IMG/VR virus record: IMGVR_UViG_3300046660_000716
Span: 62,001-126,000 of that record
Strand: one strand, 5' to 3'
Length of the DNA: 64,000 bases
Source of the DNA: a virus
Position numbers and translations under genes: made by a program. This document shows, piece by piece, positions 3,734 to 52,405 of the stretch; positions within the stretch are counted from its first letter, which is position 1, and each line of letters begins with the position of its first letter. The notes beneath the pieces are model-generated. The model was not told where the DNA came from, did no database searches, and saw only the letters and a program-made list of their open reading frames with translations.

Positions 3734-3785
3734 CATCATGCAAGACGGAATCATTCTCAACGGACACAAAAAAGGAGCAGCACAG

Positions 3786-4034: not shown

Positions 4035-4387
4035 TCCACGTCTACAACATCGTCCGGGCGTCCATGAACGGCGCCCCGGACGAACCGCTGCGCGCCGACG
4101 TCGTGTCCACGCACATCAACCCGAAGTTCAACGACCGCGCCGAGAAGTCGGCGACGCTGGCCTTCGAGGCCGCGTGCCAGGAGTTCCGGCGCGCGACGAT
4201 CGGCACGGACTACGAGCTGCTGGAGGAGCACGACTACTCGCGCTCCGACATGACCGGCCACTACATGCGCCTGGAGGCGGACCCGAAGGCGCCGAGCACC
4301 ATGATGCGCCTGCAGTTCACGCTGCGCCACCGCAACGGGGAGCTGCGCCACGTGACGTTTCAGCTCGTGCAGAGCTGCATAGCCTAG
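4031..4387 (+). CDS. Hypothetical protein, 118 aa
   Basis: I chose the GTG at 4031 because it overlaps the preceding stop (GTGA) and has AGGGA 7 bases upstream. An ATG at 4013 would add 6 residues. The second half is beta-rich (MMRLQFTLRHRNGELRHVTF). No family was recognised. Confidence 0.65.
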   Translation: MIHVYNIVRASMNGAPDEPLRADVVSTHINPKFNDRAEKSATLAFEAACQEFRRATIGTDYELLEEHDYSRSDMTGHYMRLEADPKAPSTMMRLQFTLRHRNGELRHVTFQLVQSCIA

Positions 4388-4397
4388 GAGGCGTGCC

Positions 4398-5446: not shown

Positions 5447-5453
5447 ATATCAT
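5447..5453 (+). promoter_or_regulatory. ATATCAT promoter-like motif before the 5506 gene
   Basis: CATATCAT lies in a short intergenic gap 52 bases before the start codon. TATCAT fits a sigma70-type -10 hexamer with one mismatch. It is one of eleven gap or gene-end copies of ATATNAT in this window. No clear -35 box is present. Confidence 0.5.
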
Positions 5454-5463
5454 GTGGTCGACA

Positions 5464-6652: not shown

Positions 6653-6659
6653 ATATTAT
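6653..6659 (+). promoter_or_regulatory. ATATTAT variant promoter motif
   Basis: CATATTAT lies between the terminator at 6603 and the start at 6693. Its spacing to the start codon (33 bases) matches the ATATCAT copies elsewhere, so it probably restarts transcription. Confidence 0.5.
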
Positions 6660-6692
6660 ACCAATGCTATAGCAATTCCAAGAGAGGAAACC

Positions 6693-9076: not shown

Positions 9077-9445
9077 GTGAAGCTCATCAATCTGAGCCTG
9101 CATGTGCGGGACAACGGCCCGTGGAAGCGGCAAGCGGGCGGCGCGGCGTGGTCCGGCATGGAGTACCATCGCCAGCATATCATGGATGCGGTGAAGGCGC
9201 TGCACTCCTGCGGCGCCACGCTGATCCACATCCCGCTCGACCCGCTCTCGCTCGACCAGTCGAACGACGCGTTCGTGATGCACCGCTTCTTCGGCGACGA
9301 CCACCGCGTCTCTCCCGTCGTGCGCCGCCTGGCCGTCATCCCGGACGGGTCCGCGCGCATCGAGTGGTGGCAGGCGAACTCCAGCCGGCTGGTCTGCACC
9401 GACCAATTCACGCTCCCAGAAACCGAACCAGAAAGAACCGCATGA
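9077..9445 (+). CDS. Hypothetical protein, 122 aa
   Basis: I chose GTG 9077, spaced 6 bases after GGGAAG and just past the upstream stop; GTG 9071 is also in frame but has no room for a ribosome-binding site. The stop overlaps the ATG of the topoisomerase A subunit (ATGA), so the two are probably co-translated. Function unknown. Confidence 0.65.
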   Translation: MKLINLSLHVRDNGPWKRQAGGAAWSGMEYHRQHIMDAVKALHSCGATLIHIPLDPLSLDQSNDAFVMHRFFGDDHRVSPVVRRLAVIPDGSARIEWWQANSSRLVCTDQFTLPETEPERTA

Positions 9446-15899: not shown

Positions 15900-15906
15900 A
15901 TATCAT
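15900..15906 (+). promoter_or_regulatory. ATATCAT promoter-like motif
   Basis: CATATCAT lies just after a terminator and 34 bases before ATG 15941. TTGAGC occurs 17 bases upstream of TATCAT, the best -35-like match among the copies. Confidence 0.6.
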
Positions 15907-15940
15907 TCCTGTGAGACTAACCCACACAAAGGAGAACCAC

Positions 15941-16698: not shown

Positions 16699-17234
16699 AG
16701 AAGATGAACCAAGAGAAGGGTCCGGCCTACGTGGACTTCAGCCGCGAGACCATGTACCCCGTCGTGCGCGCCGTGCTTGCGGCCACGCGGTTCTCCGGCC
16801 ACATCTACAACCTGGAGCGCGTAGACCATCCGGTAACGTCCGACGCGCTCTGCGCCGAGGCGGTCCGCGTGCTCAAGGCGGCAGGATACACCGACCGCGT
16901 GTACAACTGCATCACGCCGCGCATGACGCTGCAGCGCGAGGGCTTCCCGTGGGAGTACGCGGAAGTGGAGGTCGACCTGCGCAAGTTCGCCCACGGCGAC
17001 GACGCCTGCCAGCATGAGTACATCCGCCTGTACTGGGAGGAGGGCGGCGGCGCGATGGACAGCGGCACGCCGCACACGTATATCATGTGCATGCGCTGTG
17101 CCAAGAGCCCGGTCCTGCCGAGCATCGGCACACGCCGCAAGCCCGGCGCCGGGCTGACCGTGGAGCGCGTGCCAGCTCCGCCCAGCCTCTGGCGTCGCGT
17201 CCTGCAGTTCCTGAACCCCTGCGACAAAACGTAA
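16695..17234 (+). CDS. Hypothetical protein, 179 aa, with cysteine pairs
   Basis: The ATG overlaps the previous stop. There is a CMRC pair near residue 133, with an HEY..LYW segment before it. Only one CxxC is seen. Function unknown. Confidence 0.7.
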   Translation: MKKMNQEKGPAYVDFSRETMYPVVRAVLAATRFSGHIYNLERVDHPVTSDALCAEAVRVLKAAGYTDRVYNCITPRMTLQREGFPWEYAEVEVDLRKFAHGDDACQHEYIRLYWEEGGGAMDSGTPHTYIMCMRCAKSPVLPSIGTRRKPGAGLTVERVPAPPSLWRRVLQFLNPCDKT

Positions 17235-21649: not shown

Positions 21650-22816
21650 ATGGAAGGACTGGAAAAGATAGGATTCGAGGTGGGCTGGGATCACGCCGAG
21701 TACGGCCTGTCCCTGCCTGCCGACTTCTCCGGGCCGGGCGTGATGCTTGACGGTTACAAGGCCGGCATCCTCAGACTGGGCCAGGCCAGGCCCAAGGAGC
21801 ACGACATCTTCACCAAGAAGTGGCTGCAGCTGCGCCGGTCGGCGTGGCGCCGCGGCCGCATCTTCGAGGAGGCGGTGACCCCGCGCTTCCTGGTGCAGAT
21901 CGCGCAGGACAACTGCCCGATCTGCCGGTTCGAGATGACCTCCGGGACGGGCGAGGACACGGACTGGTCCGTCGACCGCCTCAACAACGACGGCGGCTAC
22001 GCCCGGGGAAACCTGGTCGTGATGAGCGTCAGGGCCAACAAGGCCAAGGCAGCGCTCACGGTCGAGGAGATCGTGAAGCGCTCCACCGAGTTCAGCGAGG
22101 AGCACCAGGCGATGGTCCTCGACAGCACGCCCCTGTACGGTCTGACCGTGCAGGAGACGATGCGGCTCTACACCCTGACCGTGCTCACGTCCGTCGAGCA
22201 CATGGTCATCCCCTCGGTCGTGATGGTGCCCCCTCACGTGCCGACGGGCGTGCCGTACATCCTGCAGTGCTACCTCGCCCGCCTGTCGGTGATCGCCGTG
22301 TTCTCGGCGAAGCTGATGAGGGAGCTCAAGGCGCTCGACGGCCGCCCGAACGGTATCTGGCGCGTCGTCCGCCTCATGATGGAGCGCGCCAAGCCGCGCA
22401 TCGCCGACCACCCGAACAGCGCCAGCTGGTTCGACTGGGGCGCGCGGGAGTACGTCATCGGAGGCCAGGACGTCGACTGGCTGGCCGAGGACATCTGGCT
22501 CTACAACGCGGACGTGTACAAGGCGTTCCACAAGTGGGCGCTTAACGCCCCTCCGAAGGTGTTCGAGTACGTGACCCGCTCCGTGTTCGACCTCGCCGCC
22601 CGCCAGGGGTGCGGCACCTCCTTCAACCGCACCACGAACGTGGACCGCGAGGCGCTGGGCCACCGCATCGGCCTGGACACGCGCGGGTTCGTCGACGCGC
22701 ACGACCGCCGGGCCTCCCCGCGCCCGGACTCCGAGGACCGGCGCGCGCCGATCGAAATGCCTCCCGGCACGGATATCATTCCCGTGCAACCAACCGAAGG
22801 AGTAAGCACCGCATGA
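21650..22816 (+). CDS. HNH-like endonuclease domain protein, 388 aa
   Basis: The start follows CCGGAGAGCGAC. Residues 89-135 contain CPIC, then SVDRLNNDGGYARGN, then VRANKAKAALT, the spacing of small HNH nucleases (zinc-knuckle pair, active-site region, structural Asn). The usual first histidine is not obvious, so activity is uncertain. The remaining 250 residues are helical and unrecognised. The last codons run through the promoter motif at 22773 and the stop overlaps the next ATG. Confidence 0.6.
   Translation: MEGLEKIGFEVGWDHAEYGLSLPADFSGPGVMLDGYKAGILRLGQARPKEHDIFTKKWLQLRRSAWRRGRIFEEAVTPRFLVQIAQDNCPICRFEMTSGTGEDTDWSVDRLNNDGGYARGNLVVMSVRANKAKAALTVEEIVKRSTEFSEEHQAMVLDSTPLYGLTVQETMRLYTLTVLTSVEHMVIPSVVMVPPHVPTGVPYILQCYLARLSVIAVFSAKLMRELKALDGRPNGIWRVVRLMMERAKPRIADHPNSASWFDWGAREYVIGGQDVDWLAEDIWLYNADVYKAFHKWALNAPPKVFEYVTRSVFDLAARQGCGTSFNRTTNVDREALGHRIGLDTRGFVDAHDRRASPRPDSEDRRAPIEMPPGTDIIPVQPTEGVSTA
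22773..22779 (+). promoter_or_regulatory. ATATCAT promoter-like motif inside the end of the HNH-like gene
   Basis: GATATCAT lies 33 bases before ATG 22813 and within the last codons of the upstream gene. It would allow separate expression of the 22813 gene. Confidence 0.5.
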
Positions 22817-23429: not shown

Positions 23430-23492
23430 CTGCGCTCCGCAACCTGGGCTCGATCCTGGAACATCCACTTAGCCAAACAGAGGATCACGCTC

Positions 23493-24719
23493 ATGTCCAA
23501 CACAACGCAGGGTAAGGTCTTCCTTTCCCGAGAGTACCACAAGGTCGAGGAGGCGCTGTCGCGCCCCGGCGCCGCGGCCCGCCTGCACGCCCACATGCAG
23601 GGCGTCATCGGGTCCGACCGGCTCATGAAGGCCCTGGAGGCCACGCATCCCGGCGAGACGGTCTACTTCGGCGACAAGGAGGGCAGCGCCGACCAGGTGC
23701 CGGTTTACGAGATCTCCGGGCTGAACCCGCTCGAGGTGCGCAAGGCCATCAAGGACACCGGCGTCGTCCAGGCGTCCTGGGCGCACGCCAACAAGCCGCT
23801 GTACTGGACGATGATGATGATCATCCGCTTCCACGCGCGCCAGAAGAACACCGCCCCGACCGCGATGAAGGTCGGCTTCCGCGCCGCCGAGATCGAGGAG
23901 AACACGAAGATGGCCGTCATGTTCATGGCCACCGCCATGTACGCCGGCCTGCAGTTCCGCTACTTCCGCCGCTTTTACCAGCCGAACGCCATGGCCTACG
24001 CGATGAACACGCTGACGGACAAGTTCACGCTGAAGCAGGAGGGCACGATGATCAAGACCATCTTGACCATCGCGTGGCGCGCGCACCTCAAGTACGCCCC
24101 GGACCTGGAGAACGGCTCCGACCTGCTCCTGCTCAAGTACCTCGTCAGCATGTGGGGCCGCCTGAACGGGATGGTCAAGGCGCTGAAGAACCAGTACGAG
24201 AACACCAAGCTCGCCGGCAACTACCTCAACCAGTCCCGCGACCGCCACGACGACGGCGAGATGGTCGAGCGCGAGACGGACGGCGGGCGGGTGGAGGCCA
24301 CGGTCAACAAGGTCAACGAGGCGTTCTTCGGGGAGCCGATGCCGCCGCGCATCGTCGACATCGCCGCGCAGATGACCGACACGCCGCAGCAGAGCCTGGT
24401 GCTGGCGGTCAACGAGATCCGACAGGGCGACCCAGGCCCGGTCCAGGAGGCCATCCACATCATCGTGGAGCTCTTCTTCGAGGAGACGCGGGGCACACGC
24501 GAGGACATCAGGACGCGGAACTTCCTGTCGTTCTGCAACAGCGTGTACATGCGATCAAATACAGTGGATCAAAGAGTCGAAAAGCTCAAGGCGATCCTTG
24601 ATAAACTCCTCCGCGAGCGCAGCCCGCAGTACCTCCGCACGAACCGGGAGGCCACCAAGGGCGCGTTCCGCAAGGCCATGTACCTGACCCTGGTGCTCTA
24701 CATCCAGACCAAAGCCTAG
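23493..24719 (+). CDS. Hypothetical protein, 408 aa, mostly helical
   Basis: The start follows AACAGAGGATCACGCTC. The protein is long and helical with a Met-rich hydrophobic segment (YWTMMMIIRF and MAVMFMATAMYAGL) that is too broken by charges to be a confident membrane helix. Bases 24545-24610 use A/T-ending codons unlike the rest. Function unknown; a structural role is possible but not shown. Confidence 0.75.
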   Translation: MSNTTQGKVFLSREYHKVEEALSRPGAAARLHAHMQGVIGSDRLMKALEATHPGETVYFGDKEGSADQVPVYEISGLNPLEVRKAIKDTGVVQASWAHANKPLYWTMMMIIRFHARQKNTAPTAMKVGFRAAEIEENTKMAVMFMATAMYAGLQFRYFRRFYQPNAMAYAMNTLTDKFTLKQEGTMIKTILTIAWRAHLKYAPDLENGSDLLLLKYLVSMWGRLNGMVKALKNQYENTKLAGNYLNQSRDRHDDGEMVERETDGGRVEATVNKVNEAFFGEPMPPRIVDIAAQMTDTPQQSLVLAVNEIRQGDPGPVQEAIHIIVELFFEETRGTREDIRTRNFLSFCNSVYMRSNTVDQRVEKLKAILDKLLRERSPQYLRTNREATKGAFRKAMYLTLVLYIQTKA

Positions 24720-24988: not shown

Positions 24989-24995
24989 ATATCAT
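24989..24995 (+). promoter_or_regulatory. ATATCAT promoter-like motif
   Basis: GCATATCAT in the gap 37 bases before ATG 25033. No -35-like hexamer is evident. Confidence 0.55.
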
Positions 24996-25032
24996 TCTCC
25001 TGTCCAAGCCGGACTACTAAGGAGAATTCGAT

Positions 25033-26090: not shown

Positions 26091-26097
26091 ATATCAT
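26091..26097 (+). promoter_or_regulatory. ATATCAT promoter-like motif
   Basis: AATATCAT lies 32 bases before ATG 26130, directly after the Nudix stop. Confidence 0.55.
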
Positions 26098-26129
26098 ACT
26101 TTCGCAAGACCAACAACCAAGGAGCAGCA

Positions 26130-27697: not shown

Positions 27698-27794
27698 GTT
27701 CGGCACCTGCCGCGAGGCGTGCAAGGCGCTGAGCGAGGTTCCCGAGGGGAAGGAGGCGCGCCTCTACGCGACGCTGGGAGAGGCCCATGGCTAA
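27579..27794 (+). CDS. Small hypothetical protein, 71 aa
   Basis: The start follows ACGGAAGCTAAAA and lies inside the end of the DUF4326 gene. It has cysteines at CGEQC and TCREAC. It overlaps the next start by 8 bases. Codon use favours this frame over the overlapped tail of the upstream gene. Function unknown. Confidence 0.55.
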   Translation: MNVCGEQCRRAGLATPSNAVGTEVQFFDPTTGWTATPKTKFGTCREACKALSEVPEGKEARLYATLGEAHG

Positions 27795-28530
27795 GCTGAC
27801 ACCCGACAAGCGCGCCCGGATCGAGAAGCTGGTGGTCTCGGCCTTCGCCGCCCTCGACGAAACGGGCGCGAACGCGGCCAAGTACGAGAAGGAGCTCAAG
27901 GGAATGAGCGACGCCCAGTTCACGAGGTGGCTGGACGAGTTCGTTCGCAACGAGGACAAGCACTTCTACCTGGACGTGCAGCCCTTCCACAACGAACCGA
28001 CGCTGGAGCAGATCGAGAAGGCTGCCAAGATCACCGGCACGAAGCTCCACCAGTACGTCTACTTCAAGCACGACGGCGCCCAGGGCGACCCGGTGCGCAC
28101 CGCGAAGCGCCTGCCCTGCGGCTACATCCACGTCCGCCGCCTGCAGCAGATCCTGGCCAAGAAGACGTCCTACTCGACCGAGGCCAGCAAGCGCAGCCAG
28201 CTGACAGGCCAGCTCTCAGGCGACGACGCCGTTGGCCGCCTGGCCGACGAAGAGGCGTACGCCCTCAAGACCGTCGGCGCCAACGCCATCCTGCGCGAGC
28301 TCCTGGGTCCGCGCGCCGACAACCGGGGCAAGCGCCTCGGCATGTACCACGCGATCGAGCGCGACGGCTACGTGCAGTACAAGGACCTCGTGGGCGACAC
28401 GAAGGACCAGCCGACGCTGAACTACCTCAACACGCTGCTCCTGGCGGCCGGGCTCAAGTCCGACCTCGTCGACTCGACCGAGCTGCTGCGCGTGAGCGTC
28501 GATCGCCCCATCGAAAACCAAAGGAAATGA
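27787..28530 (+). CDS. Protein resembling the extreme C-terminus of RNA polymerase beta
   Basis: The 247-residue protein has an N-terminal helical region. From residue 112 it follows the order of bacterial RpoB's end: GYIHVRRL (against GYMYMLKL), a KKTSYSTEA segment at the KMHARS position, QLSGDDAVGRLADEEAYALKT (against FGEMEVWALEAYG), GMYHAIERDG (against KMYKNIVDG), and NYLNTLLLAAGLKSDL (against NVLLKEIRSLGINIEL). The alignment is by eye and identities are modest. It would be the beta region that contacts the beta' N-terminus. It is distinct from the larger beta-like gene at 34677, which has its own C-terminus. Confidence 0.5.
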   Translation: MAKLTPDKRARIEKLVVSAFAALDETGANAAKYEKELKGMSDAQFTRWLDEFVRNEDKHFYLDVQPFHNEPTLEQIEKAAKITGTKLHQYVYFKHDGAQGDPVRTAKRLPCGYIHVRRLQQILAKKTSYSTEASKRSQLTGQLSGDDAVGRLADEEAYALKTVGANAILRELLGPRADNRGKRLGMYHAIERDGYVQYKDLVGDTKDQPTLNYLNTLLLAAGLKSDLVDSTELLRVSVDRPIENQRK

Positions 28531-28531
28531 C

Positions 28532-29086
28532 ATGATCATCGAAGACATGGGCCTCATGGAGGCCCTCGAGATGCCGTACGCACCGATCAAGATCTGCGCC
28601 GCCGGTCTGACCGGCACCTCCGGCACCTACGCGCGCGCCGACCCGATCTACGACGACGTGGCCGCCGTCCTGGCCGCGATGCCGGCCGCGTGCCCGTTCG
28701 ACGCGAAGACGCTGCGCGAGGAGGCACACGTGACCATCGTGTACTCCCGCGAGCACGCCGCCGACATGTCGCTCATCGACAAGTCCGCGTTCGACCTGCG
28801 CTGCATCGAAGCCAAGATCACCGGCATCGAGCACTGGGACGGCCACGACGGCGACGGGTACGTCGTACTGAAGCTGGCGAGCGAGTCGCTGGCGGCCTGG
28901 AACCGCTACCTGATCGACGCGGGCGCCCAGCATAGCTTCCCGGACTACTCGCCACACCTGAGCCTCTGCTCCAAGGCCGGCCCGAAGACGCCGGAGATGG
29001 TGAGCTGGATGGAGTCGGCGTGCGAGAAGCTGGTGGGCATGTGCCTGTGCTTCGACGCCATCATCATCGAAGACATCAAGAAGTAG
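28532..29086 (+). CDS. 2H phosphoesterase-like protein, candidate anti-CBASS Acb1
   Basis: The start is one base after the previous stop, preceded by AAAGGAAATGAC. The two signature motifs are HVT at residues 66-68 and HLS at 142-144, each after a beta-strand (EEAHVTIVYS and YSPHLSLC). The segment between them (HWDGHDGDGYVVLKLAS then LIDAGAQHSFPDYSPH) fits the layout of phage Acb1 enzymes. Acb1 cleaves cyclic oligonucleotide messengers of CBASS defence. The second motif has Ser where Thr is usual. Other 2H enzymes (RNA ligase-like or 2',5'-phosphodiesterases) are the alternative. Confidence 0.65.
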   Translation: MIIEDMGLMEALEMPYAPIKICAAGLTGTSGTYARADPIYDDVAAVLAAMPAACPFDAKTLREEAHVTIVYSREHAADMSLIDKSAFDLRCIEAKITGIEHWDGHDGDGYVVLKLASESLAAWNRYLIDAGAQHSFPDYSPHLSLCSKAGPKTPEMVSWMESACEKLVGMCLCFDAIIIEDIKK

Positions 29087-29465: not shown

Positions 29466-29472
29466 ATATCAT
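29466..29472 (+). promoter_or_regulatory. ATATCAT promoter-like motif
   Basis: GCATATCAT lies 70 bases before ATG 29543, with a hairpin between them. An ATG inside the motif (29471) opens a frame into the 29543 gene and is not taken as the start. Confidence 0.55.
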
Positions 29473-29490
29473 GCGTTTGAACCAACAGAG

Positions 29491-30178: not shown

Positions 30179-30185
30179 ATATCAT
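30179..30185 (+). promoter_or_regulatory. ATATCAT promoter-like motif
   Basis: CATATCAT lies 53 bases before ATG 30239. A short CCCG/CGGG stem precedes it. Confidence 0.55.
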
Positions 30186-30238
30186 ACTCTCGAACCGATA
30201 GCCGTACTACCTCAACCCCACAAGAAAGGTACCACACC

Positions 30239-33237: not shown

Positions 33238-33244
33238 ATATAAT
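33238..33244 (+). promoter_or_regulatory. Extended -10 promoter of the recombinase gene
   Basis: TGATATAAT contains a perfect TATAAT with an upstream TG, 45 bases before ATG 33290. TTATCA lies 18 bases upstream as a weak -35. It is the best sigma70-type promoter in the window and a variant of the ATATCAT class (ATATAAT). Confidence 0.7.
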
Positions 33245-33289
33245 TGTATCGTACGACCACCGATTCACCCATTCACAAGGAAGCACACA

Positions 33290-34606
33290 ATGGCAACTCG
33301 TAAAGCGCTGGAAGAAGCGAAGGCCGCGAAGGCAGCTGAGAAAGCAGCGAACAAGGCGGCAGCGCTGACCGCCGGCGGTTTGATGGACATGATGAAGGAC
33401 ATCGCGGGCAAGGCCGGCATCAAGGAAGCCAAGTCCTACAAGCCGGTCCCGACCGGCCTGAACGTCATGGACTACTACAACGCCCGCTACTTCATGAACC
33501 ACGAGTCGAAGCAGCACGAGCTGTTCACGGGCCTGCCAACCGGCAAGCTGATCATGATGATCGGCTACACCGGCACGGGCAAGACCACCCTGGCAGTCCA
33601 GAACGCCTGGTCGATGGTAGCCCCGTTCCAGGAAGGCAGCATCTTCCACATCGACCTCGAGAACGCCTGGTCGATCGAGCGCACCGCCGACATCACGGGC
33701 GTGAGCGTCGACACGGTCAAGACCAAGTACTTCCGCACCGAGCCGATCTCGCTGGACAAGATCTACGCCTTCATCAAGCGCGTCATCTTCGCCAAGCAAG
33801 AGCGGATGAAGAACCCGAACGACCCGATCTGGGTCACGAACCCGCACACCGGCGAGCGCATGGTCACGCCGACCGTCTTCCTGATCGACACCGTCGCGGC
33901 CCTCCAGTCCGAGGAGGTCCTCTCCGAGAACGAGGAGATGGGCAAGCTGATGTACGAGAAGGGCGCCCAGGCCGGCGCCAACAATGCGTTCGCGCAGCGC
34001 CTGGCCGGCATGATCGGCGAGGTCAACATCACCATCTTCGCGATCAACCACGTCCGCGTCGGCATCAGCGACGGCGGTTCGCCGAAGCCGAAGCGCGTCC
34101 AGTACCTGGCGGCCGACGAGACCGTCCCGGGCGGCACCGGCTTCCCGCAGTACGCCGACTACTTCCTGCACCTGCGCCCGACCGACTCACTGACCATGAA
34201 GGCCGACGAGGGCTTCGCCATCCCGGGCAAGATCGTCAAGTGCTCGATCATCAAGTCGCGTCTGTCCTACGACGGCCGCCAGTTCGACCTGGTCCTGACC
34301 GACAACGGCTTCAGCAACGCCTGGTCCAACCTGCAGTTCCTGAAGAGCGTCAAGGCGATCAAGGGCGCGGGCGCCCACCTGTTCATCGAGGCGCCGGACG
34401 GCCGCGCCACGCGTAAGTTCGCCCAGCGCAACTGGTCCGAGTTCTACGAGGGCGACCAGGAATTCCGCGAGGTCGCCGACGCGCGGCTCGAGTACGAGCT
34501 GCTGGGCCTGGTTCCGCAGCCAGGCACCGCCGAAGAGCAAGAAGTCATGGCAGGCGCCGAAGCCGTGGCAGGCGACCTCGACGAGGCGCTGACCGCCACC
34601 GAGTAA
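33290..34606 (+). CDS. RecA/UvsX-type recombinase
   Basis: The 438-residue protein starts after CACAAGGAAGCACACA. Residues 1-30 are Ala/Lys-rich. The RecA core has Walker A GYTGTGKTT at 92-100 (Lys98), HIDLEN after it, and Walker B VFLIDT with Asp200. ITIFAINHVRVGI marks the region before loop L2. It should form ATP-dependent filaments on single-stranded DNA for recombination and replication restart. Sequence similarity to bacterial RecA is low; UvsX-like or SAK4-like assignment is not resolved. Confidence 0.85.
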   Translation: MATRKALEEAKAAKAAEKAANKAAALTAGGLMDMMKDIAGKAGIKEAKSYKPVPTGLNVMDYYNARYFMNHESKQHELFTGLPTGKLIMMIGYTGTGKTTLAVQNAWSMVAPFQEGSIFHIDLENAWSIERTADITGVSVDTVKTKYFRTEPISLDKIYAFIKRVIFAKQERMKNPNDPIWVTNPHTGERMVTPTVFLIDTVAALQSEEVLSENEEMGKLMYEKGAQAGANNAFAQRLAGMIGEVNITIFAINHVRVGISDGGSPKPKRVQYLAADETVPGGTGFPQYADYFLHLRPTDSLTMKADEGFAIPGKIVKCSIIKSRLSYDGRQFDLVLTDNGFSNAWSNLQFLKSVKAIKGAGAHLFIEAPDGRATRKFAQRNWSEFYEGDQEFREVADARLEYELLGLVPQPGTAEEQEVMAGAEAVAGDLDEALTATE

Positions 34607-34622
34607 CACCCGCACCAAGCGC

Positions 34623-34652
34623 AGCGCCTCCGGCCCATCGGTCGGAGGCGCT
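34623..34652 (+). promoter_or_regulatory. Intergenic hairpin, 10-13 bp stem, CATC loop
   Basis: AGCGCCTCCG pairs with CGGAGGCGCT; three inner pairs leave loop CATC. No T-run. It lies 24 bases before the start of the RNA polymerase beta-like gene. Confidence 0.5.
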
Positions 34653-34676
34653 TCCGCAACCCGAAGGAGAAGAAGA

Positions 34677-36761
34677 ATGGCAGGATCAGTAATCAAGGAC
34701 GCAGCACAGTTCGACGGCGGGCACAAGTTCCTCGCGGAGGAGCTGCTGCAGCCGATGTCGGACAAGTGCGACGTCGGCCGCACCAACATGTGGGCCGGCC
34801 ACTTCGTCCAGGCCGTGACGCTGGACCACCCGGAGCGCCCGCGCATCTTCAGTCGCTTCGAGGACGCCATCGGTGCGTACACCACCGCCGTGAAGGTGCT
34901 GCCGGCCGACGCCGAGATCGTGGCCGTGTTCCAGAAGAACGCCCTGCAGAGCGTGTACGCGATCCGCTACGCAGACGGGAAGATGGACGTGCACTTCGCC
35001 AAGCCGGTGCGCCACCTGACCGAGAACTACGGCTACACCCTGAGCAGCCACCTGGAGGGCCGCCAGGCCGGCGAGAAGCTCCCGTCCGGCTCCGTCATCC
35101 AGAGCTGGGCCTGCACGAACGAGGAGGGCAGCTTCCAGTTCGGCCAGAACCTGCGCACCGTGTACATGAACAAGGACGGCAAGACCTACGAGGACGGCTA
35201 CATCATCGGCGAGTCCGCGGCCGACAACATGTCGCACACCTCGGTCGAGGAAGTCACGGTCGTGCTCAACGCCAACGACCTGCTCGTCAACCACTACAGC
35301 GGGAACGAGGAGCACCAGGGCTTCCCGAACGTGGGCGAGAAGATCAAGAACGGCCTCATGTCCGTCCGCCGCCGGATCAACCACGAGTCGATCCTGTTCG
35401 ACCTGGCGGCGCAGCAGCTGGGCAAGATCCACTGGGACGCCGACCAGCCGTTCTACGTCGACGGCACGGTGGTGGACATCGACGTCTACTCGAACCTGTC
35501 GGCCGAGGAGCTGGACAAGCACCCGTTCAACAGCCAGATCCTGCAGTACCACAACAAGTGGCTGGAGTTCCGCGACTGGTTCACCGAGGTCTTCAGCGAG
35601 GTCACCCAGTCCGAGGGTCCGCGCATGTACTCCGACGACGTGGCCTACTGGTGGCGCCTGTGCCGCGACACCCGCACGGAGCGGTGGCGCCACGAGCGCC
35701 GCGAGTTCGACGGCGTGGTCATCCGCTTCACGGTGGCAAAGCGCAACCCGGTCAAGGCGGGCTCGAAGCTCACCAACCGCTTCGGCGGCAAGGGCGTCGT
35801 CTCGGAGGTCCGCCCGGACCACCTGATGCCGAAGACCAAGGACGGCGTCTACGCGCAGCTGATCGTCAACAGCCTGGGCGTGGTTAACCGCCTCAACCCG
35901 GCCCAGCTGTACGAGTCCGAGGTGAACTACATCGGAGAGTGCGTGGAAGCCCAGATGCGCGCGATGCCCGGCGTCGAGGCGGCCGCGACCCACTTCCTGA
36001 AGTTCCACTCGTTCGTCGACCCCGTGCACGGTGCGTTCCTGGCCGAGCAGCCCGAGCTGTACGATCTCGTGGGCGAGATCCTGCGCGGCGAGGAGCACAT
36101 CTACATCCACCAGCCGCCCTTCTTCGGCAACATCTCGCTGGATACGCTCGAGCTCACCTACAAGGAGTTCGGCGTCGAGAAGGTGTACTACGAGGGCCTG
36201 GAGGAGCCGCAGATCCCGGGCACCAACTACTACCTGAAGCTGCGCCACGAGCCGCTGTCGAAGATGTCCGCCCGCTCGGCCAAGCACCTGTCGATCAGCG
36301 GCGTCCCGACCAAGAACAGCCGGGGCGTGCGCGGCAGCACGGAGCACCACAGCACGACGCCTATCCGCCTGGGCGAGCAGGAGCTCCAGAACTTGCTGAT
36401 AGCCAACCAGCCGGACGAGCTGAAGCGCCTGCTGCGCCTGTACGCCACCGACGACCTGTCCCGCGAAGGGGCGATCGCCGAGCTGCTGGTGCGCCAGGAC
36501 GCGTTCTCGCACGAGCGCATCGAGCCGCGCGGCACGGGCATCACCCGCCCCGTCGCCGGCCTGAAGGCGCTGCTCGAGTCCATCGGGCTCAAGCTCCAGA
36601 CCACCGGCGAGATCGTGGACGAGTCCCTGGACGACGTCCCCCTGCCTACCACCTACGCCACATTGGAGATCGAAAATGAGCATGAAGAAACCGCAGCCAC
36701 CGAGGCCGCAATTGCCGTCGAAGAGCTCGACCCAGTCGACCCAGACGCCGAAGACGAGTGA
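34677..36761 (+). CDS. Multisubunit RNA polymerase beta subunit, C-terminal half
   Basis: The 694-residue protein starts after CCGAAGGAGAAGAAGA. It follows RpoB from about E. coli residue 670 onward: DVGRTNMWAGHFVQAV (against DANRALMGANMQRQAV), FGQNLRTVYM then TYEDGYIIGE with Glu172-Asp173 matching the ED pair near the active site, and VKAGSKLTNRFGGKGVV with Lys364 and Lys372 eight residues apart like Lys1065/Lys1073. VNSLGVVNRLNPAQ and LRHEPLSKMSARS at the end match NPLGVPSRMN and KMHARS. The N-terminal half of beta is absent, as in split polymerases of some jumbo phages. Other subunits must lie elsewhere. Confidence 0.9.
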   Translation: MAGSVIKDAAQFDGGHKFLAEELLQPMSDKCDVGRTNMWAGHFVQAVTLDHPERPRIFSRFEDAIGAYTTAVKVLPADAEIVAVFQKNALQSVYAIRYADGKMDVHFAKPVRHLTENYGYTLSSHLEGRQAGEKLPSGSVIQSWACTNEEGSFQFGQNLRTVYMNKDGKTYEDGYIIGESAADNMSHTSVEEVTVVLNANDLLVNHYSGNEEHQGFPNVGEKIKNGLMSVRRRINHESILFDLAAQQLGKIHWDADQPFYVDGTVVDIDVYSNLSAEELDKHPFNSQILQYHNKWLEFRDWFTEVFSEVTQSEGPRMYSDDVAYWWRLCRDTRTERWRHERREFDGVVIRFTVAKRNPVKAGSKLTNRFGGKGVVSEVRPDHLMPKTKDGVYAQLIVNSLGVVNRLNPAQLYESEVNYIGECVEAQMRAMPGVEAAATHFLKFHSFVDPVHGAFLAEQPELYDLVGEILRGEEHIYIHQPPFFGNISLDTLELTYKEFGVEKVYYEGLEEPQIPGTNYYLKLRHEPLSKMSARSAKHLSISGVPTKNSRGVRGSTEHHSTTPIRLGEQELQNLLIANQPDELKRLLRLYATDDLSREGAIAELLVRQDAFSHERIEPRGTGITRPVAGLKALLESIGLKLQTTGEIVDESLDDVPLPTTYATLEIENEHEETAATEAAIAVEELDPVDPDAEDE

Positions 36762-37407
36762 CCTCGTCCCGGCCGACGGCCTGCTGGAGTCCGGCTCGGA
36801 CAGCGCCCCGTCGATGCCCTCGGGCTCGTCGGACGGCCTGACCGAGGTGGCGTCGGAGCCGGAGACTCCGGCGGCCGAGGGGCTCACCGTGACCTCGGCC
36901 ACCGACGACTTCGACGGTGACGCCGGTGCGGCGATCGAGGTACCGCCCGGCGACCACCGCGAGTTCGAGAGCGAGGCGTTCGTGCCGCTGGTCGCCCCCG
37001 ACCCGCTGCCGTCCGCCCCGGTGGTCGGCGAGCCCGTGTCGCCGGTGTCCGAGGCGCTCCCGGACGGCGCGATGCCGTACCTGGGCGTCCTGGTCCAGGC
37101 CAACATGGTGGGTCGCTCCGGCTCCGGCCGGGTGGCCGGCCTGCCCGTGGTGATCCGCAGCACGGAGGCTGCTCCCCGCACCCTGGGGGTCCTGGTGCTG
37201 TCCGACCCGGGCACCACCATGGCCATCGAGCGCAAGCTCACGGAGGCGGGCTACGTCGGCCCGTTCGCCGTGTTCCTGCCCCACGAGCTGTCCCGCGAGC
37301 TGAAGCTGGCCGCGGCGAAGGCGATCGCTCCGCAGGCCCAGGAAGACGGGCTGGACCGCGCCGCGGCGCTGTCCGCGCTCGGCCACAGCTTCCAATCCCT
37401 CGCCTAG
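36676..37407 (+). CDS. Hypothetical protein, Ser/Pro/Glu-rich N-terminus, contains a DFDGD motif
   Basis: The start at 36676 follows TTGGAGATCGAAA and lies 86 bases inside the beta-like gene. Residues 1-120 are low-complexity. DFDGD at 78-82 followed by IEVP and E...EA recalls the beta' catalytic motif NADFDGD...VP, and gene order beta then beta' is the bacterial order. However, nothing else matches beta', and the region is acidic enough for chance. The C-terminal 110 residues look folded (GVLVQANMVGRSGSGRVAGL). Function unknown. Confidence 0.7.
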   Translation: MSMKKPQPPRPQLPSKSSTQSTQTPKTSDLVPADGLLESGSDSAPSMPSGSSDGLTEVASEPETPAAEGLTVTSATDDFDGDAGAAIEVPPGDHREFESEAFVPLVAPDPLPSAPVVGEPVSPVSEALPDGAMPYLGVLVQANMVGRSGSGRVAGLPVVIRSTEAAPRTLGVLVLSDPGTTMAIERKLTEAGYVGPFAVFLPHELSRELKLAAAKAIAPQAQEDGLDRAAALSALGHSFQSLA

Positions 37408-37411
37408 CGAG

Positions 37412-37418
37412 ATATCAT
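37412..37418 (+). promoter_or_regulatory. ATATCAT promoter-like motif
   Basis: GATATCAT lies 65 bases before ATG 37484, with a hairpin between them. Confidence 0.55.
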
Positions 37419-37427
37419 TGACATGGA

Positions 37428-41057: not shown

Positions 41058-41336
41058 ATGACCCGCAATACCCAAGTCAGTATCAGCACGGAACTCCCCA
41101 ACGCGCCCATCCGCGACTCCCTTCAGCCTGGCGACGTATTCGTCTACGCGCACCGCCGCAACGATCTGCGCCTGGTGCCGAACGTGTCGTTCTCCAGCAT
41201 GGGCCAGCACCTCGTCGGCAAGGACGTCATCCTGAGCGGCGAGCACGCCGGCATGACCGACGACTCGACGCCAAGCGCGCAGGTCATCGCCATGGACATC
41301 GTTGCGTCCCCATCCTCGACGGCGGTGCCGGCATGA
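41058..41336 (+). CDS. Hypothetical protein, 92 aa
   Basis: ATG 41058 follows CAACGGAGAAACTTC; ATG 41031 lacks a ribosome-binding site. Beta-rich (LQPGDVFVYAHRRNDLRLV). Its stop overlaps the ligase ATG, implying coupling. Confidence 0.65.
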   Translation: MTRNTQVSISTELPNAPIRDSLQPGDVFVYAHRRNDLRLVPNVSFSSMGQHLVGKDVILSGEHAGMTDDSTPSAQVIAMDIVASPSSTAVPA

Positions 41337-43528
41337 GCACCAAGACCGCGTACCACGCCGTCCTCGCGGCGGTCCAGGCCGGCAACCTGGAGCTCTCCCA
41401 GCGCCTGCTGAAGGAGCACAACGATGCGTACTACGAGAACGGCTCGTCCGCCATGACGGACCCCGAGTTCGACCACGCGTGCAAGATCTACACCGGTCGC
41501 TTCGGTCTGGTTTTCAAGACCGGTTCCGTCGCGCAGAAGGCGCAGGTCGAGGGTCACAGTCGCCACGCCGTGCACGCGCACGAGTGGCCTCTGCTGTCCG
41601 GCTGGCTGGCCAAGGCCGACGGTCCCGCAGAGATGGCCGCGTGGCTGACCAAACGCGTGCGCTCCGGCGCCAACATGATCGGCAGCCCGAAGTGGGATGG
41701 CATGAGCCTGGTCTTCACCTACAGCCAGTTCGGCATCGTCAAGCGCGTGCTGACGCGCGGTGAGGACGGCAAGGGCGTGGACGTCACCCGCCACTTCAGG
41801 GACGAGTCGCACTTCGGCGGCTACGACTTCGGCGTCGCGAAGTTCGGCGTCAAGTACGAGGCCGTGCTGTCCTGGACCGACCTCGAGCGCATGAACGAGG
41901 ACCTGGGCGGCGAGTACAAGAACCCGCGCAATACCATCGCCGGCATCATCGCCAAGGACGACAGCTCCGAGCGCCGCCAGTACGTCACGCTGGTGCCGTT
42001 GGAGATCGAGTGGAAGGACATGACCGACGACCGCGTCGAGCGTCTGACCTTCATGCAGCAGCTGTTCGCCGGCACCGAGCAGACCACGGATGAGGATACC
42101 GGGTTGGTAACTCCTGCAGCCGGACCGATCTTCAACGACGGCCACAACGCCGCACCGTTCTTCTGGTGGGGCACTGGCGATGCCGAAGCGTTCAGCGCGT
42201 GCTCGGACATCTACCAGACCGTCCACGACATGCGCGACACCTGCGACTACATGCTCGACGGCACGGTCATCGAGTTCGCCGAGGACCAGGACGTCGAGCG
42301 TCTGGGCGGCCTGGAGAACGACTGCCCGGACTACGCCCTGGCCGTCAAGTTCCCGAGCATGGTCGGCCGCACGTTCGCGCGCACGATCGACTTCGACACG
42401 GGCAACACCGGCCGGCGCACGCCGTGCGTCAACTACGACCCGATCACGCTCGACGGACGCACATTCAGCCGAACGTCACTCGCGAACATGACACGGTTTG
42501 ATCAGTTAAAGCTCGCCCCGGGAACACCAATCTTAGTCGAAATCCGTGGTGACATCATCGGCTGGGTGGACCGCGACGGGGACGACCCGGCCGGCGCCGT
42601 GCCGTTCGTCGAGCCGGAAGGCATGACGTACACGTACAACCGCAAGCTGGGCTACCGGGTCTTCGCCTACAGCGAGGCCCCGCTGGAGGGCCGCGTCGAG
42701 CGGATGGTCATCAAGTGCGGCATCAAGGGCCTGCGCATTGAGACTGCCCGCAAGCTCGTCGAGGCCGGTGTCGTGACGAAGCTGTCGGACATGTGGGACC
42801 TCGAGCCCAAGTTCGCGCAGATCGCCTCGATCCCCGGCATGGGCGAGGGCTCGGCCAACATCGTGCTGGACGCCATCGACCGCGTCCGCCGCGACGGCCT
42901 GTGGGACTGGCAGATCCTCGCCAGCATCGGGATCAACAACGTGGGCCGCACGCTGTCCAAGGAGGCGCTGAAGGTGCGCACCCTGGAGGAGCTGCTGGCC
43001 GCCACGGCCCCGTTCCCGCTCAGCGAGGCATCGATGCTGGAGAGCCGCGCCATCCTCATCGCAGAAGCGACTCAGGACCTTGTGGCTATACTCGGTAAGG
43101 AGCGCGGACCGATGGTGATGGAGGGCGTGGAGCGGTGCTGGTCGGACCTGTCTGACCTCATGCACGCCAACCTGCCCAAGGTGAACGTCACCAAGACGGC
43201 GATGCTTGCCGCCACCACAGGACAGAAGTACAAGGTCGTCGTAACCGGCGATCTCACGCACTGGGACCGAGACGTCTTCCGGGACTACATCGAGACCCTC
43301 GGCCACAAGATGGTCGGCTCGATGAGCAGAAAGGTCGACCTGCTCATCACCAACACCCCGAAGTCGGGGACGAAGAAGAACAAGGAGGCGCAAGCCCTCG
43401 AGATCCGCATCGTCACCGAGCAGGAGGCCATCGAAATCATGGGCCTGACCCCTCCCGCCGCGAAGGCGGGTTACGTTCCGGGCGCACCGGAAGCAGGAGT
43501 GCGCGAAGGCTCGCTCGACGAGCTGTGA
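41333..43528 (+). CDS. ligA: NAD-dependent DNA ligase lacking the zinc finger
   Basis: The 731-residue protein starts at the ATGA overlap. The N-terminal Ia region (LLKEHNDAYYENGSSAMTDPEFD) binds NMN of NAD+. SPKWDGMS holds the adenylated Lys120. The OB fold follows with RTSLANMTRFDQLKLAPG. After it the four-cysteine zinc finger of bacterial LigA is missing. Helix-hairpin-helix repeats (IPGMGEGSANIV) and a C-terminal BRCT domain (from about residue 632, VVVTGDLTHWDRDVF) are intact. It seals nicks during replication and repair. A patch at about 42485-42545 uses A/T-ending codons unlike the rest. Confidence 0.93.
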   Translation: MSTKTAYHAVLAAVQAGNLELSQRLLKEHNDAYYENGSSAMTDPEFDHACKIYTGRFGLVFKTGSVAQKAQVEGHSRHAVHAHEWPLLSGWLAKADGPAEMAAWLTKRVRSGANMIGSPKWDGMSLVFTYSQFGIVKRVLTRGEDGKGVDVTRHFRDESHFGGYDFGVAKFGVKYEAVLSWTDLERMNEDLGGEYKNPRNTIAGIIAKDDSSERRQYVTLVPLEIEWKDMTDDRVERLTFMQQLFAGTEQTTDEDTGLVTPAAGPIFNDGHNAAPFFWWGTGDAEAFSACSDIYQTVHDMRDTCDYMLDGTVIEFAEDQDVERLGGLENDCPDYALAVKFPSMVGRTFARTIDFDTGNTGRRTPCVNYDPITLDGRTFSRTSLANMTRFDQLKLAPGTPILVEIRGDIIGWVDRDGDDPAGAVPFVEPEGMTYTYNRKLGYRVFAYSEAPLEGRVERMVIKCGIKGLRIETARKLVEAGVVTKLSDMWDLEPKFAQIASIPGMGEGSANIVLDAIDRVRRDGLWDWQILASIGINNVGRTLSKEALKVRTLEELLAATAPFPLSEASMLESRAILIAEATQDLVAILGKERGPMVMEGVERCWSDLSDLMHANLPKVNVTKTAMLAATTGQKYKVVVTGDLTHWDRDVFRDYIETLGHKMVGSMSRKVDLLITNTPKSGTKKNKEAQALEIRIVTEQEAIEIMGLTPPAAKAGYVPGAPEAGVREGSLDEL

Positions 43529-46074: not shown

Positions 46075-46081
46075 ATATCAT
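46075..46081 (+). promoter_or_regulatory. ATATCAT promoter-like motif
   Basis: GCATATCAT lies 41 bases before ATG 46123 in the 156-base gap between the divergent genes 45289-45966 and 46123. The gap otherwise holds GC-rich sequence with no recognised element. Confidence 0.55.
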
Positions 46082-46122
46082 TGTCCGGAGACGCCCCGTA
46101 AATCAGACTCCTGGAAGAGCAG

Positions 46123-46332: not shown

Positions 46333-46967
46333 TGCCGAAGCTGATAGACCTGTCGGGACAGACGTTTGGAAGGCTCACCGTTGTGCGGCGCCACGGCCTG
46401 GACGGACGAAACACGACGTGGCTGTGCACGTGCGACTGCGGAGGTCCGAAGGCAGATGAGGTTATCGTGCAGACCTACAACCTGCGGCACGCAAAGACGG
46501 TGTCGTGCGGATGCGTTCGCAAGGAGAACTCGGCCGCTGCAACGATCACGCATGGTATGTCCGAGACGCGCGTGTACCACATATGGAAGATGATGCTGCA
46601 GCGATGCACGAATCCGAAGGCCGATGCGTACAGCAACTACGGTGGCCGAGGAATCACCGTCGACCCGTCGTGGCATGAATTCGAGAAATTCTATGCGGAC
46701 ATGGGCGAACCGCCATCGCCAAAGCACACCCTCGAACGCGAGGACAACAACGGCAACTACACATCGTCAAACTGCAAGTGGGCGACCGATGAGGAGCAGG
46801 CCAACAACCGTCGGACCAATGTGACACTCACGTTGGGCGAGCGCACGATGACGAAAGCCCAATGGGCTCGCGAGTTAGGAATCACTGATTGCTCGCTGCA
46901 GAACCGACTGGATGCCGGATGGAGCGTCGAGCGCGCACTTACCACCAAGAAACGAGGAACACAATGA
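46332..46967 (+). CDS. HNH homing-type endonuclease
   Basis: The 211-residue protein begins with a zinc-binding-like region (CTCDCGG and VSCGCVRKE). Its HNH core is W..MLQRCTNP, YGGRGITVDPSWHEFEKF, then HTLEREDNNGNYTSSNCKWAT and EQANNRR. The C-terminal TMTKAQWARELGI looks like a DNA-binding helix-turn-helix (NUMOD-like). Codons such as GGA, ATA and TTT are more frequent than in neighbours, suggesting recent acquisition. It ends overlapping the truncated DNA polymerase, a typical position for a free-standing homing endonuclease. Confidence 0.88.
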   Translation: MPKLIDLSGQTFGRLTVVRRHGLDGRNTTWLCTCDCGGPKADEVIVQTYNLRHAKTVSCGCVRKENSAAATITHGMSETRVYHIWKMMLQRCTNPKADAYSNYGGRGITVDPSWHEFEKFYADMGEPPSPKHTLEREDNNGNYTSSNCKWATDEEQANNRRTNVTLTLGERTMTKAQWARELGITDCSLQNRLDAGWSVERALTTKKRGTQ

Positions 46968-48814
46968 CCGAAACGGTATCGAAGCCTGTGGTACGCCACC
47001 AGCTGATTAACGTAATCCATCATAACATGGCGCTCTACCATTCCGACTGGTTTGGCAAGGGCCAGTGCGTGATGCTGGTCGAGAAGCTGCACTTCCCCGA
47101 CGGCACGACCAAGAAGCAGGTGCTGAAGGTCGAGAAGCCGACCCAGCAGTACTCGCTGACCGCCCCCGAGTTCCAGGCCGAGCACGAGCTGCCCGAGCTG
47201 GCCTACCCGTCGAACCGCTGCGAGCTGTACGAGAGCCCGATCGACCAGCTGGACCGCCACGTCGCCGAGCTGACCGGCCAGATGGCCTACTACAACGAGA
47301 CCAAGGGTCCGGGCGCCAACCGCCGCCGCCGGAAGCTCCACGACCACCGCTGGCTGCACGGCTCCGACGCCAACATCGCCGACGCGTACATCGACCGCTA
47401 CATGGAGAAGTACGCCAAGGAGGGCGTGCTGGACACGACCTCCCCGCTCGAGCAGGCTTTCGCCGACATCGAGGTGGACGGCGTGGACTATCGCGGCTTC
47501 CCGGACGAGCGCATCGCCCCGGTCCCGGTCAACCTGATCACGTACTTCCACCGCCCCACGCGCAAGATGACCCAGTTCATCCTGCGCAACACGGTGCGCG
47601 ACAACCCGGCCATCGCCCAGTTCGAGAGCGACACGGGCTACTGGCTCGTCCGGCTGATGGCCGAGTACAACCGCGCGCCGCTCGAGAAGGCCCGCAAGGG
47701 CGCGGACGGCGTCAAGCTGGCGCCGCTGGTCCCGAAGGACTGCGAGTGGGAGGTCATCGCCGGCCAGATCGGACTGACCGAGGGCGTGGATGCCGATCCG
47801 GACTCCGTGGCCGCCTGCCGCCTCCAGGACCTGGACCTGCTGTTCTACGACACCGAGCTCGAGCTCCTGGAGGCGTTCTTCCACCTCGTCAACGAGGTCG
47901 ACCGCCCGGACACGCTGGCCTACTGGAACGCGTCGTTCGACATCCGCACCATGATGGGCCGCGTGCAGCAGCTGGGCTTCAACCCGGCCGAGGCTTTCTC
48001 GCCGCAGGACTTCCGCCCGTGGTGCATCGCGGACTACAACGAGGACACGTTCAACGCGCTGAAGCCGACCGAGTCGGGCGACGTCTTCACCGTGAGCGCG
48101 TACACGATCTACATCGACCAGATGCTGCTGTACGCGCAGCTGCGGAAGGCCGGCGGCCTCAAGGAGAGCTACAGCCTGGACTTCACCATCGAGGCCGAGC
48201 TGGGGCAGAACAAGCTCGAATTCGCCGGTCCGATCAGCCAGTTCTCGTACAACGACTTCCCGCGCTTCGTCGAGTACGGCGGCAAGGACGTCCTGCCGAT
48301 GGCGGACCTGGAGGACAAGACCGAGGACATCGCGCAGGCGTACCAGCTGTCGATGGTCACCCGCACCCGGTTCCACAAGATCCTGAAGAAGACCGTCTGC
48401 CTGCGCAACCTGGCCAACGTCTACTACCGGGACCGCGGCCTGACGCTCAGCAACAATCGCAACCGCAACAAGGAGCGCATCGACACCGAGAAGTTCCGCG
48501 GCGCGTTCGTCGCGGACCCGCAGCTCATGGGCGCCACCGGCATCATCATGGGCGGCACGAGGTCCGACCGGGTGTTCGACGACGTGGTCGACTTCGACGC
48601 GACGGCGCTGTACCCGTCCATCATCATCGGCTTCAACATCGACCAGTCGGGCCAGGTCGGCCGCCTGGTGACGCTCGACGAGTACGGGCAGGACGTGAAC
48701 TCGTTCACGCTGATGGAGAACTGGGCGTGCGGCGACCCGCTGGAGGTCGGCCGCGAGTGGCTGGGCCTGCCGGGTGTGGCCGAGCTGGCCGAGCTGGTCC
48801 GCGACCCGCAGTAG
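46964..48814 (+). CDS. Family B DNA polymerase, N-terminal part ending after motif A
   Basis: The 616-residue protein starts at the ATGA overlap with the HNH gene. The 3'-5' exonuclease is complete: Exo I FADIEV (Asp168, Glu170), Exo II WNASFD (Asn322-Asp326) and Exo III YGGKD (Tyr438, Asp442). Polymerase motif A is DFDATALYPSI with Asp545. The protein then stops about 70 residues later, so the palm remainder, motif B (K..NS.YG) and motif C (DTDS) are missing. Either the enzyme is split and the second half lies outside the window, or it is only an exonuclease. A hairpin follows the stop. Confidence 0.88.
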   Translation: MTETVSKPVVRHQLINVIHHNMALYHSDWFGKGQCVMLVEKLHFPDGTTKKQVLKVEKPTQQYSLTAPEFQAEHELPELAYPSNRCELYESPIDQLDRHVAELTGQMAYYNETKGPGANRRRRKLHDHRWLHGSDANIADAYIDRYMEKYAKEGVLDTTSPLEQAFADIEVDGVDYRGFPDERIAPVPVNLITYFHRPTRKMTQFILRNTVRDNPAIAQFESDTGYWLVRLMAEYNRAPLEKARKGADGVKLAPLVPKDCEWEVIAGQIGLTEGVDADPDSVAACRLQDLDLLFYDTELELLEAFFHLVNEVDRPDTLAYWNASFDIRTMMGRVQQLGFNPAEAFSPQDFRPWCIADYNEDTFNALKPTESGDVFTVSAYTIYIDQMLLYAQLRKAGGLKESYSLDFTIEAELGQNKLEFAGPISQFSYNDFPRFVEYGGKDVLPMADLEDKTEDIAQAYQLSMVTRTRFHKILKKTVCLRNLANVYYRDRGLTLSNNRNRNKERIDTEKFRGAFVADPQLMGATGIIMGGTRSDRVFDDVVDFDATALYPSIIIGFNIDQSGQVGRLVTLDEYGQDVNSFTLMENWACGDPLEVGREWLGLPGVAELAELVRDPQ

Positions 48815-51786: not shown

Positions 51787-51819
51787 CGCATCGCCTTGGT
51801 CCTCCTCGGAGGGCCGAAC

Positions 51820-51830
51820 ACTCTGATAGC
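51820..51830 (+). repeat. ACTCTGATAGC intergenic repeat, copy 1
   Basis: An 11-base exact match to 55106-55116. Both copies lie in short gaps before virion-block genes. It may be part of a late promoter or a processing site. A near copy (CTCAGATAGC) occurs at 52392. Confidence 0.4.
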
Positions 51831-51883: not shown

Positions 51884-52405
51884 ATGCAGCTCACGTTCAC
51901 ACAGATGCAGGATTACGTGAATCGCCTCCCCGTCACCGAGGCGAACTACTACATCTTCGAGGCGCTCCTGCGCCAGCCGTACGACCTGTACCGCCCGATC
52001 ATGGACATGCTCTTCGACGGCACCATCGTCGTCGAGGACCTCGTGGCGGCCGACGGCGCACCGGCCACCGGCGCGGCCCTGGCCGACATAGCGGCGGCCC
52101 GAGGCCGGCTGGCTCTGGCCTCGCGGGACGCGACGGCCGAGGCCACGTCGCAGCGCGCCCAGTCCCTGGCCTACGGTGTGCAGCCCGGCGCCGTGGTGCT
52201 CCAGCGCGACGCGACGCCGCTCACCGCCAACCCGGACGGCTCTCCGGGGTCCGTCTACGTCCCCGGCACAACGTCGGTGGTCGGCGCGGACGCGTCGTCC
52301 ATCTCCCCGAACCCGATCGAGCTGGAACGCGCGGGCTCCCTGGAGGACGCGCAGAAGGCGTCCCAGGAGGCTGTCATCGCGGCCATGCAACCTCAGATAG
52401 CATAG
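51884..52405 (+). CDS. Putative virion-block protein with shared N-terminal module
   Basis: The start follows TTGAGAGGCGACA. Residues 1-55 (FTQMQDYVNRLPVTEANYY, then ALLRQPYDLYRPIMDMLFDG) match the N-termini of the 52416 and 54065 products. The rest is Ala/Ser-rich. Position before the portal suggests a virion or assembly role, which is inferred. Confidence 0.75.
   Translation: MQLTFTQMQDYVNRLPVTEANYYIFEALLRQPYDLYRPIMDMLFDGTIVVEDLVAADGAPATGAALADIAAARGRLALASRDATAEATSQRAQSLAYGVQPGAVVLQRDATPLTANPDGSPGSVYVPGTTSVVGADASSISPNPIELERAGSLEDAQKASQEAVIAAMQPQIA

Follow-up and report, generated by a model that had tools for sequence, protein, structure and literature searches.

A GC-rich, distant relative of phage AR9 with a predicted split RNA polymerase and both of its promoter classes

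The open reading frame (ORF) at positions 34677-36761 of the window is, judged by its sequence, the beta-C subunit of a split non-virion RNA polymerase (nvRNAP) of the type found in the jumbo phages AR9, PBS1 and phiR1-37. The window is the whole stretch of 64,000 nucleotides analysed here, bases 62001-126000 of a virus record of 259,338 bases; positions in the full record are called genome positions. The phage, which is GC-rich, is related only very distantly to the giant phages already known, Bacillus phage AR9 among them. Its beta-C protein is of a known kind and not new, and the AR9-type split enzyme has already been characterised biochemically and structurally (PMC9209446). New are the complete nvRNAP gene set and the two promoter classes in a genome of high GC content, together with a prediction of uracil in the DNA. 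The homology of the subunits, the catalytic residues, the full nvRNAP gene set and both promoter classes with their positions are observed directly. It is very probable that beta-C belongs to an AR9-type nvRNAP which would transcribe late genes from AACA-N6-T(A/G), a promoter that it would read on the template strand and probably with uracil in the DNA, while a virion RNAP would transcribe early genes, those of the nvRNAP included, from ATATCAT-N6-G.

Identity of the beta-C subunit

34677-36761, + strand: beta-C subunit of the nvRNAP, equivalent to the C-terminal half of RpoB; 694 aa, ATG start, active-site residues K364/K372 and E172-D173

According to the coding model, the frame is uninterrupted, with a strong coding signal and no frameshift. 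The product matches Pfam RNA_pol_Rpb2_6 (E=3e-15), and PHROG 3295 "RNA polymerase beta subunit" covers its residues 16-643 (E=6e-97). Matches by tblastn were found in 159 phage records, headed by the Bacillus phages AR9 and PBS1 (32% identity over 93%, E=3e-103) and followed by Yersinia phage phiR1-37 and then by Staphylococcus and Listeria jumbo phages. The AR9/PBS1 counterpart is called gp089 in the papers and BI022_gp088 in RefSeq, and it is chain C of PDB entries 7S00, 7S01, 7UM0 and 7UM1; chain 7s00_C of the AR9 nvRNAP is also the best PDB match by sequence (phmmer, E=2e-106). The AlphaFold model is of moderate confidence (mean pLDDT 65), and its fold is matched best by 7s01_C (E=4e-49), then by the phiKZ nvRNAP and then by bacterial RpoB.

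In the phmmer search of the PDB, E. coli RpoB 1049-1252 aligns with residues 348-539, so that K364 and K372 are equivalent to K1065 and K1073. Bacterial RpoB thus shares the hybrid-binding region and the two lysines, but it is one full-length chain that goes together with alpha subunits and omega. K364, K372, E172 and D173 do not vary in either of the two family alignments, which bears out the claim of an earlier, sequence-only reading of this DNA that both active-site lysines and the ED pair are kept. The same reading had let the product follow RpoB from about residue 670 to the end; the alignment with Thermus beta, which starts at about residue 546 of 1119 and extends close to the C-terminus, is compatible with this start in E. 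coli numbering. Profile searches and structure prediction against RpoB, run as a check of that reading, both gave matches (Pfam, PHROG, PDB and AlphaFold fold). Its statement that the N-terminal half is missing holds for the ORF itself but not for the genome, which encodes beta-N elsewhere.

Just half a beta subunit lies at the locus, and residues 348-442 match bacterial RpoB, as would be expected if the ORF were a bacterial rpoB fragment, a contaminating piece of host DNA or a non-functional, decayed pseudogene. To this explanation we assign almost no probability: the nearest relatives are phage proteins, the active site is invariant in an intact and strongly coding frame, a search of 84,980 genomes of bacteria and archaea gave no related protein of the beta-C type, and the full complement of subunits contradicts it, as does the phage phylogeny (both described below).

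Two sets of split polymerase genes

Separate genes for beta-N, beta'-N and beta'-C and for a gp226-like promoter-specificity subunit are all present in the same genome; whole-record searches were the sole cover for about 54 kb of it (genome 8-62 kb) and for some smaller gaps.

Genome 150298-151779: nvRNAP beta-N, 38% identity, E=3e-91
Genome 3006-4415: nvRNAP beta'-N, carrying the GGDYDGD motif (DxDGD)
Genome 176568-178427: nvRNAP beta'-C, AR9 homologue
Genome 234921-236438: sigma-like gp226 homologue, 28% identity, E=2e-39

The only PDB match of the gp226 homologue is AR9 gp226 itself (7s01_A, E=1e-38), and its tblastn matches are restricted to phages of the AR9, phiR1-37, Staphylococcus and Listeria type. 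A second split beta/beta' gene set comprises four subunits of the virion RNAP.

Window 27787-28530, + strand: C-terminal fragment of virion RNAP beta, homologous to the RNAP portion of AR9 RefSeq gp077, without HD domain
Genome 185780-189712: virion RNAP beta, 1310 residues
Genome 166061-167587: virion RNAP beta'-N, GADYDGD motif
Genome 242987-244255: virion RNAP beta'-C

A genome search for further polymerase fragments, also run as a check, recovered beta-N, beta'-N and beta'-C. The proposal of a split, phage-made transcription machine is therefore well founded, the genome encoding all remaining subunits of an AR9-type nvRNAP together with four of the virion RNAP. A DFDGD string in the ORF following beta-C (36676-37407) was considered as a beta' fragment and rejected as a chance match, the real beta' N-terminal genes lying elsewhere.

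The four-way split of the core, with homologues of all core subunits and of gp226, is common to this phage and AR9. The Bacillus phages fuse an HD domain to their virion beta-C, whereas the virion beta-C described here has none. The RNA polymerase genes of this phage are uninterrupted, including those for nvRNAP beta'-N and virion beta, which are annotated as joined exons in AR9. An HNH-endonuclease-like ORF (genome 184964-185758, - strand) lies right behind the virion RNAP beta gene and resembles the HNH protein that the AR9 annotation places inside nvRNAP beta'-N.

Gene neighbourhood

Window 33290-34606, + strand: UvsX/RecA-like recombinase, directly upstream of beta-C, order identical in AR9
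Window 34622-34655 (approximate ends), + strand: strong 13-bp RNA hairpin without T run in the gap between UvsX and beta-C, z = -4.0
Window 41333-43528, + strand: LigA, NAD-dependent DNA ligase, AR9 gp094 homologue
Window 9442-11955, + strand: DNA topoisomerase II subunit A, AR9 gp044 homologue, ORF start possible from 9121
Window 3-2192, + strand: DNA topoisomerase II large/B subunit (GyrB/ParE), AR9 gp024 homologue, truncated by the window start
Window 46964-48814, + strand: split family-B DNA polymerase, N-terminal/exonuclease half, AR9 gp131 homologue
Window 55128-57683, + strand: portal/virion structural protein, AR9 gp127 homologue

The gene order UvsX, beta-C, LigA is that of AR9, and UvsX and beta-C are probably co-transcribed; the hairpin between them is a possible processing or attenuation element. 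For LigA, the coding model prefers the start at 41333 over 40442. In phiR1-37 (g261, g245, g274), whose beta-C is 32% identical over 90%, LigA lies a few genes downstream. The catalytic half of the split PolB is found at genome 159817-161964. Although the combination of genes had been thought unusual, UvsX, beta-C, LigA, the topoisomerase subunits and the split PolB are standard content of AR9 and PBS1.

Several other genes are recorded here for themselves. Adjoining the 3' end of the virion RNAP beta-C gene is an Acb1-like anti-CBASS nuclease (28532-29086, + strand; Pfam Acb1, E=3e-18), the sole match in Pfam scans of 20 other window genes. A protein of 1617 aa (58039-62892, - strand) weakly matches the N-terminal domain of the major tropism determinant and is likely a tail fibre. 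The conserved gene at 23493-24719 (+ strand) is a homologue of AR9 gp052 (PHROG 2921) and has a late-type promoter upstream. Two paralogous ORFs (genome 249873-250724 and 251863-252597, + strand) each match two AR9 paralogues (RefSeq gp241 and gp260). The window contains no tRNAs and gave no Rfam matches.

Early promoters of the virion RNAP type

A repeated ATATCAT was first spotted by reading the intergenic DNA of the window. Followed by six nucleotides and a G, it occurs 11 times in the window in comparison to 0.28 expected, always on the coding strand, and 28 times genome-wide, where the reversed pattern used as control does not occur. In the 171 kb tested, a G lies exactly 6 nt 3' of the motif in 20 of 20 7-mers, compared with 1-9 at other spacings. 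As far as its sequence tells, ATATCAT-N6-G has the shape of the early, virion-polymerase promoter of AR9, for which the consensus AAATATATATTAT-6N-G is reported (PMC5312081); the core-6N-G architecture is shared, but the core is shortened to ATATCAT. The predicted early promoters of the window, all on the + strand, are:

5447-5460: ATATCAT-N6-G
6653-6666: variant ATATTAT-N6-G
9177-9190: ATATCAT-N6-G, 265 nt upstream of the predicted start of topoisomerase A
15900-15913: ATATCAT-N6-G
17080-17093: ATATCAT-N6-G, within the end of the preceding ORF
22773-22786: ATATCAT-N6-G
24989-25002: ATATCAT-N6-G
26091-26104: ATATCAT-N6-G
29466-29479: ATATCAT-N6-G
30179-30192: ATATCAT-N6-G
33238-33251: ATATAAT-N6-G, predicted TSS G33251, 39 nt upstream of the start codon of UvsX
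37412-37425: ATATCAT-N6-G, the first downstream of beta-C
46075-46088: ATATCAT-N6-G

The site at 33238-33251 is the predicted promoter of UvsX-beta-C. Variants of the form ATATAAT/ATATTAT-N6-G precede UvsX-beta-C, beta-N and the gp226 homologue, and ATATCAT precedes beta'-N; of the five nvRNAP genes or operons, no fewer than four thus have an early-type promoter upstream. The sole early-type site of beta'-C lies about 370 nt upstream, within the preceding gene. One ATATCAT-N6-G site falls inside a DCD dCTP deaminase gene (genome 239299-239733).

Late promoters of the nvRNAP type

Gapped patterns were enumerated without bias in upstream regions free of the early motif. AACA-N6-TA was one of the highest-ranking motifs, followed closely by AACA-N6-TG, and AACA-N6-T[AG] is present in 23 of the 98 upstream regions in comparison to 3.0 expected and a maximum of 9 in 300 shuffles. 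Other AACA spacings and rearrangements occur in 1-7 upstream regions, other spacings alone in 2-5. The density of AACA-N6-TR is 1.01 per kb in intergenic DNA versus 0.18 per kb in coding DNA, whose 57 matches were counted as background. The motif agrees with the AR9 late consensus AACA-6N-TA/G (PMC5312081), and on this evidence it is assigned as the AR9 late promoter. The published transcriptome of phiR1-37 yielded no late promoter consensus. The predicted late promoters in the window are:

51817-51828, + strand: AACA-N6-TA, upstream of gene 51884-52405
23460-23471, + strand: AACA-N6-TA, upstream of gene 23493-24719

Late-type sites are also located upstream of two genes expected to be late, those of the tape measure (genome 196780) and of virion RNAP beta'-N. 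Both promoter classes, the late consensus included, can be read from sequence alone because AT-rich signals are conspicuous in GC-rich DNA. Since the phage is known from its sequence record alone, promoter classes and timing are predictions of this kind.

The late promoters also bear on whether the phage could be a relative of the phiKZ type, forming a nucleus (Chimalliviridae) and using late promoters of the TATG type. The phiKZ nvRNAP (PHIKZ071, PDB 7OGP/8QUE chain C) has a homologous split beta-C fold with about 17-18% identity in the fold alignment, and it is the second-best fold match. However, the proteins of AR9 and phiR1-37 score far better, the gp226 homologue has its tblastn matches outside the phiKZ type, and the late promoters obey the AR9 consensus, unlike the T-DNA and TATG late promoters of phiKZ. 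We therefore consider a phiKZ-type phage very improbable, and retain the assignment to the AR9 type.

Relatives and base composition

The GC content of the window is about 65% in comparison to 28% in AR9, and that of third codon positions in beta-C is 95% in comparison to 19%. A single-sequence search of IMG/VR retrieved no relatives of beta-C, while an alignment search of the same collection retrieved 13 beta-C loci with 30-36% identity and 25-55% GC, AR9 and phiR1-37 included. No near-identical published phage was found over 24 kb. In the beta-C tree, the phage forms a long, lone branch on the side of phiR1-37, a dU-DNA phage; due to the long branch and the differing composition, its exact position is unsure.

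Probable uracil in the DNA

The AR9 enzyme recognises its promoters in the template strand as 3'-UUGU-5' and requires uracil at -11 and -10; the requirement at -10 is due to V206 of gp226, which leaves the methyl group no room, and a V206G variant accepts T (PMC9209446). In the alignment, this phage keeps V206, I207 and Y210 in gp226 as well as R363 in beta-N, and V206 is kept in all five aligned homologues. The beta-N pocket residue K375 aligns with a Ser next to an Arg, and gp226 S245 and F261 differ. The Staphylococcus S6/PALS_2-type and Listeria LPJP1 jumbo phages, which have Gram-positive hosts and a beta-C of 28-30% identity, possess a gp226 homologue with Val206/Ile207, in which Phe replaces Tyr210.

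The genome further contains the gene of a DCD-family dCTP deaminase (PF22769; genome 239299-239733, + strand, E=6e-20) with dCTP deaminases as best PDB matches, and a weak match (genome 163034-163744; 26% identity, E=1e-16) to the AR9 deoxyribonucleotidase, a dTMP-phosphatase homologue whose family includes the PBS1 dTMP phosphatase (PMC12697855). The dCTP deaminase is of a different family from that of AR9, and the characterised dU phages PBS1, DSS3_VP1 and phiR1-37 use dCMP-deaminase-like, zinc-type enzymes (PMC12697855). Neither the zinc-type dCMP/dCTP deaminase of PBS1 and phiR1-37 nor the Ham1-type dTTP pyrophosphatase, which phiR1-37 has in addition, was found in the genome, and the same holds for the thymidylate synthase ThyA.

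Due to the conserved Val/Ile/Tyr of gp226, the dCTP deaminase and the dTMP-phosphatase homologue, the DNA of this phage likely contains uracil. We lean towards a jumbo phage of 65% GC with uracil DNA and a uracil-dependent split RNAP reading the template strand, in which dUTP would be provided by a dCTP deaminase of the trimeric-dUTPase superfamily (DCD) in place of the dCMP-deaminase-like enzymes. It is conceivable, and has to be taken seriously, that the two-polymerase system is unchanged but operates on thymine DNA, with an nvRNAP accepting T in its promoters and with the valine, the deaminase and the nucleotidase belonging to ordinary nucleotide metabolism. In favour of this reading, neither the zinc-type deaminase nor the Ham1 seen in known dU phages was found, and some pocket residues have changed; moreover, enzymes of the DCD family occur widely in T-DNA organisms, 13 of 14 control genomes having one. 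Against thymine DNA stand the conservation of the very valine that excludes the thymine methyl group in AR9 (PMC9209446), the presence of an enzyme making dUTP together with one that probably removes dTMP, and the missing ThyA.

Discussion

By analogy with AR9, we propose that beta-N, beta-C, beta'-N and beta'-C would form a core of four polypeptides, on which the gp226-like sigma analogue would confer promoter specificity. The virion-packaged split polymerase would enter with the DNA and transcribe early genes, those of the nvRNAP included, from ATATCAT-N6-G. The resulting five-subunit nvRNAP would then transcribe late genes from AACA-N6-T(A/G), reading these promoters in the template strand, probably as uracil-containing DNA. 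Assembly, timing and template-strand recognition are transferred from AR9, and uracil in the DNA is less certain than these.

The phage offers a very divergent, GC-rich point of comparison for the multisubunit polymerases of jumbo phages. Residues and promoter bases that survive between 28% and 65% GC are those that the mechanism needs. If uracil is present, dU-DNA phages would extend to a deep, GC-rich lineage, the DCD-type enzyme would be a different solution from the dCMP-deaminase-like enzymes of known dU phages, and the AACA/UUGU promoter code would have stayed fixed while the rest of the genome drifted from 28% to 65% GC. Uracil-dependent promoter recognition also becomes testable in a second, distant enzyme.
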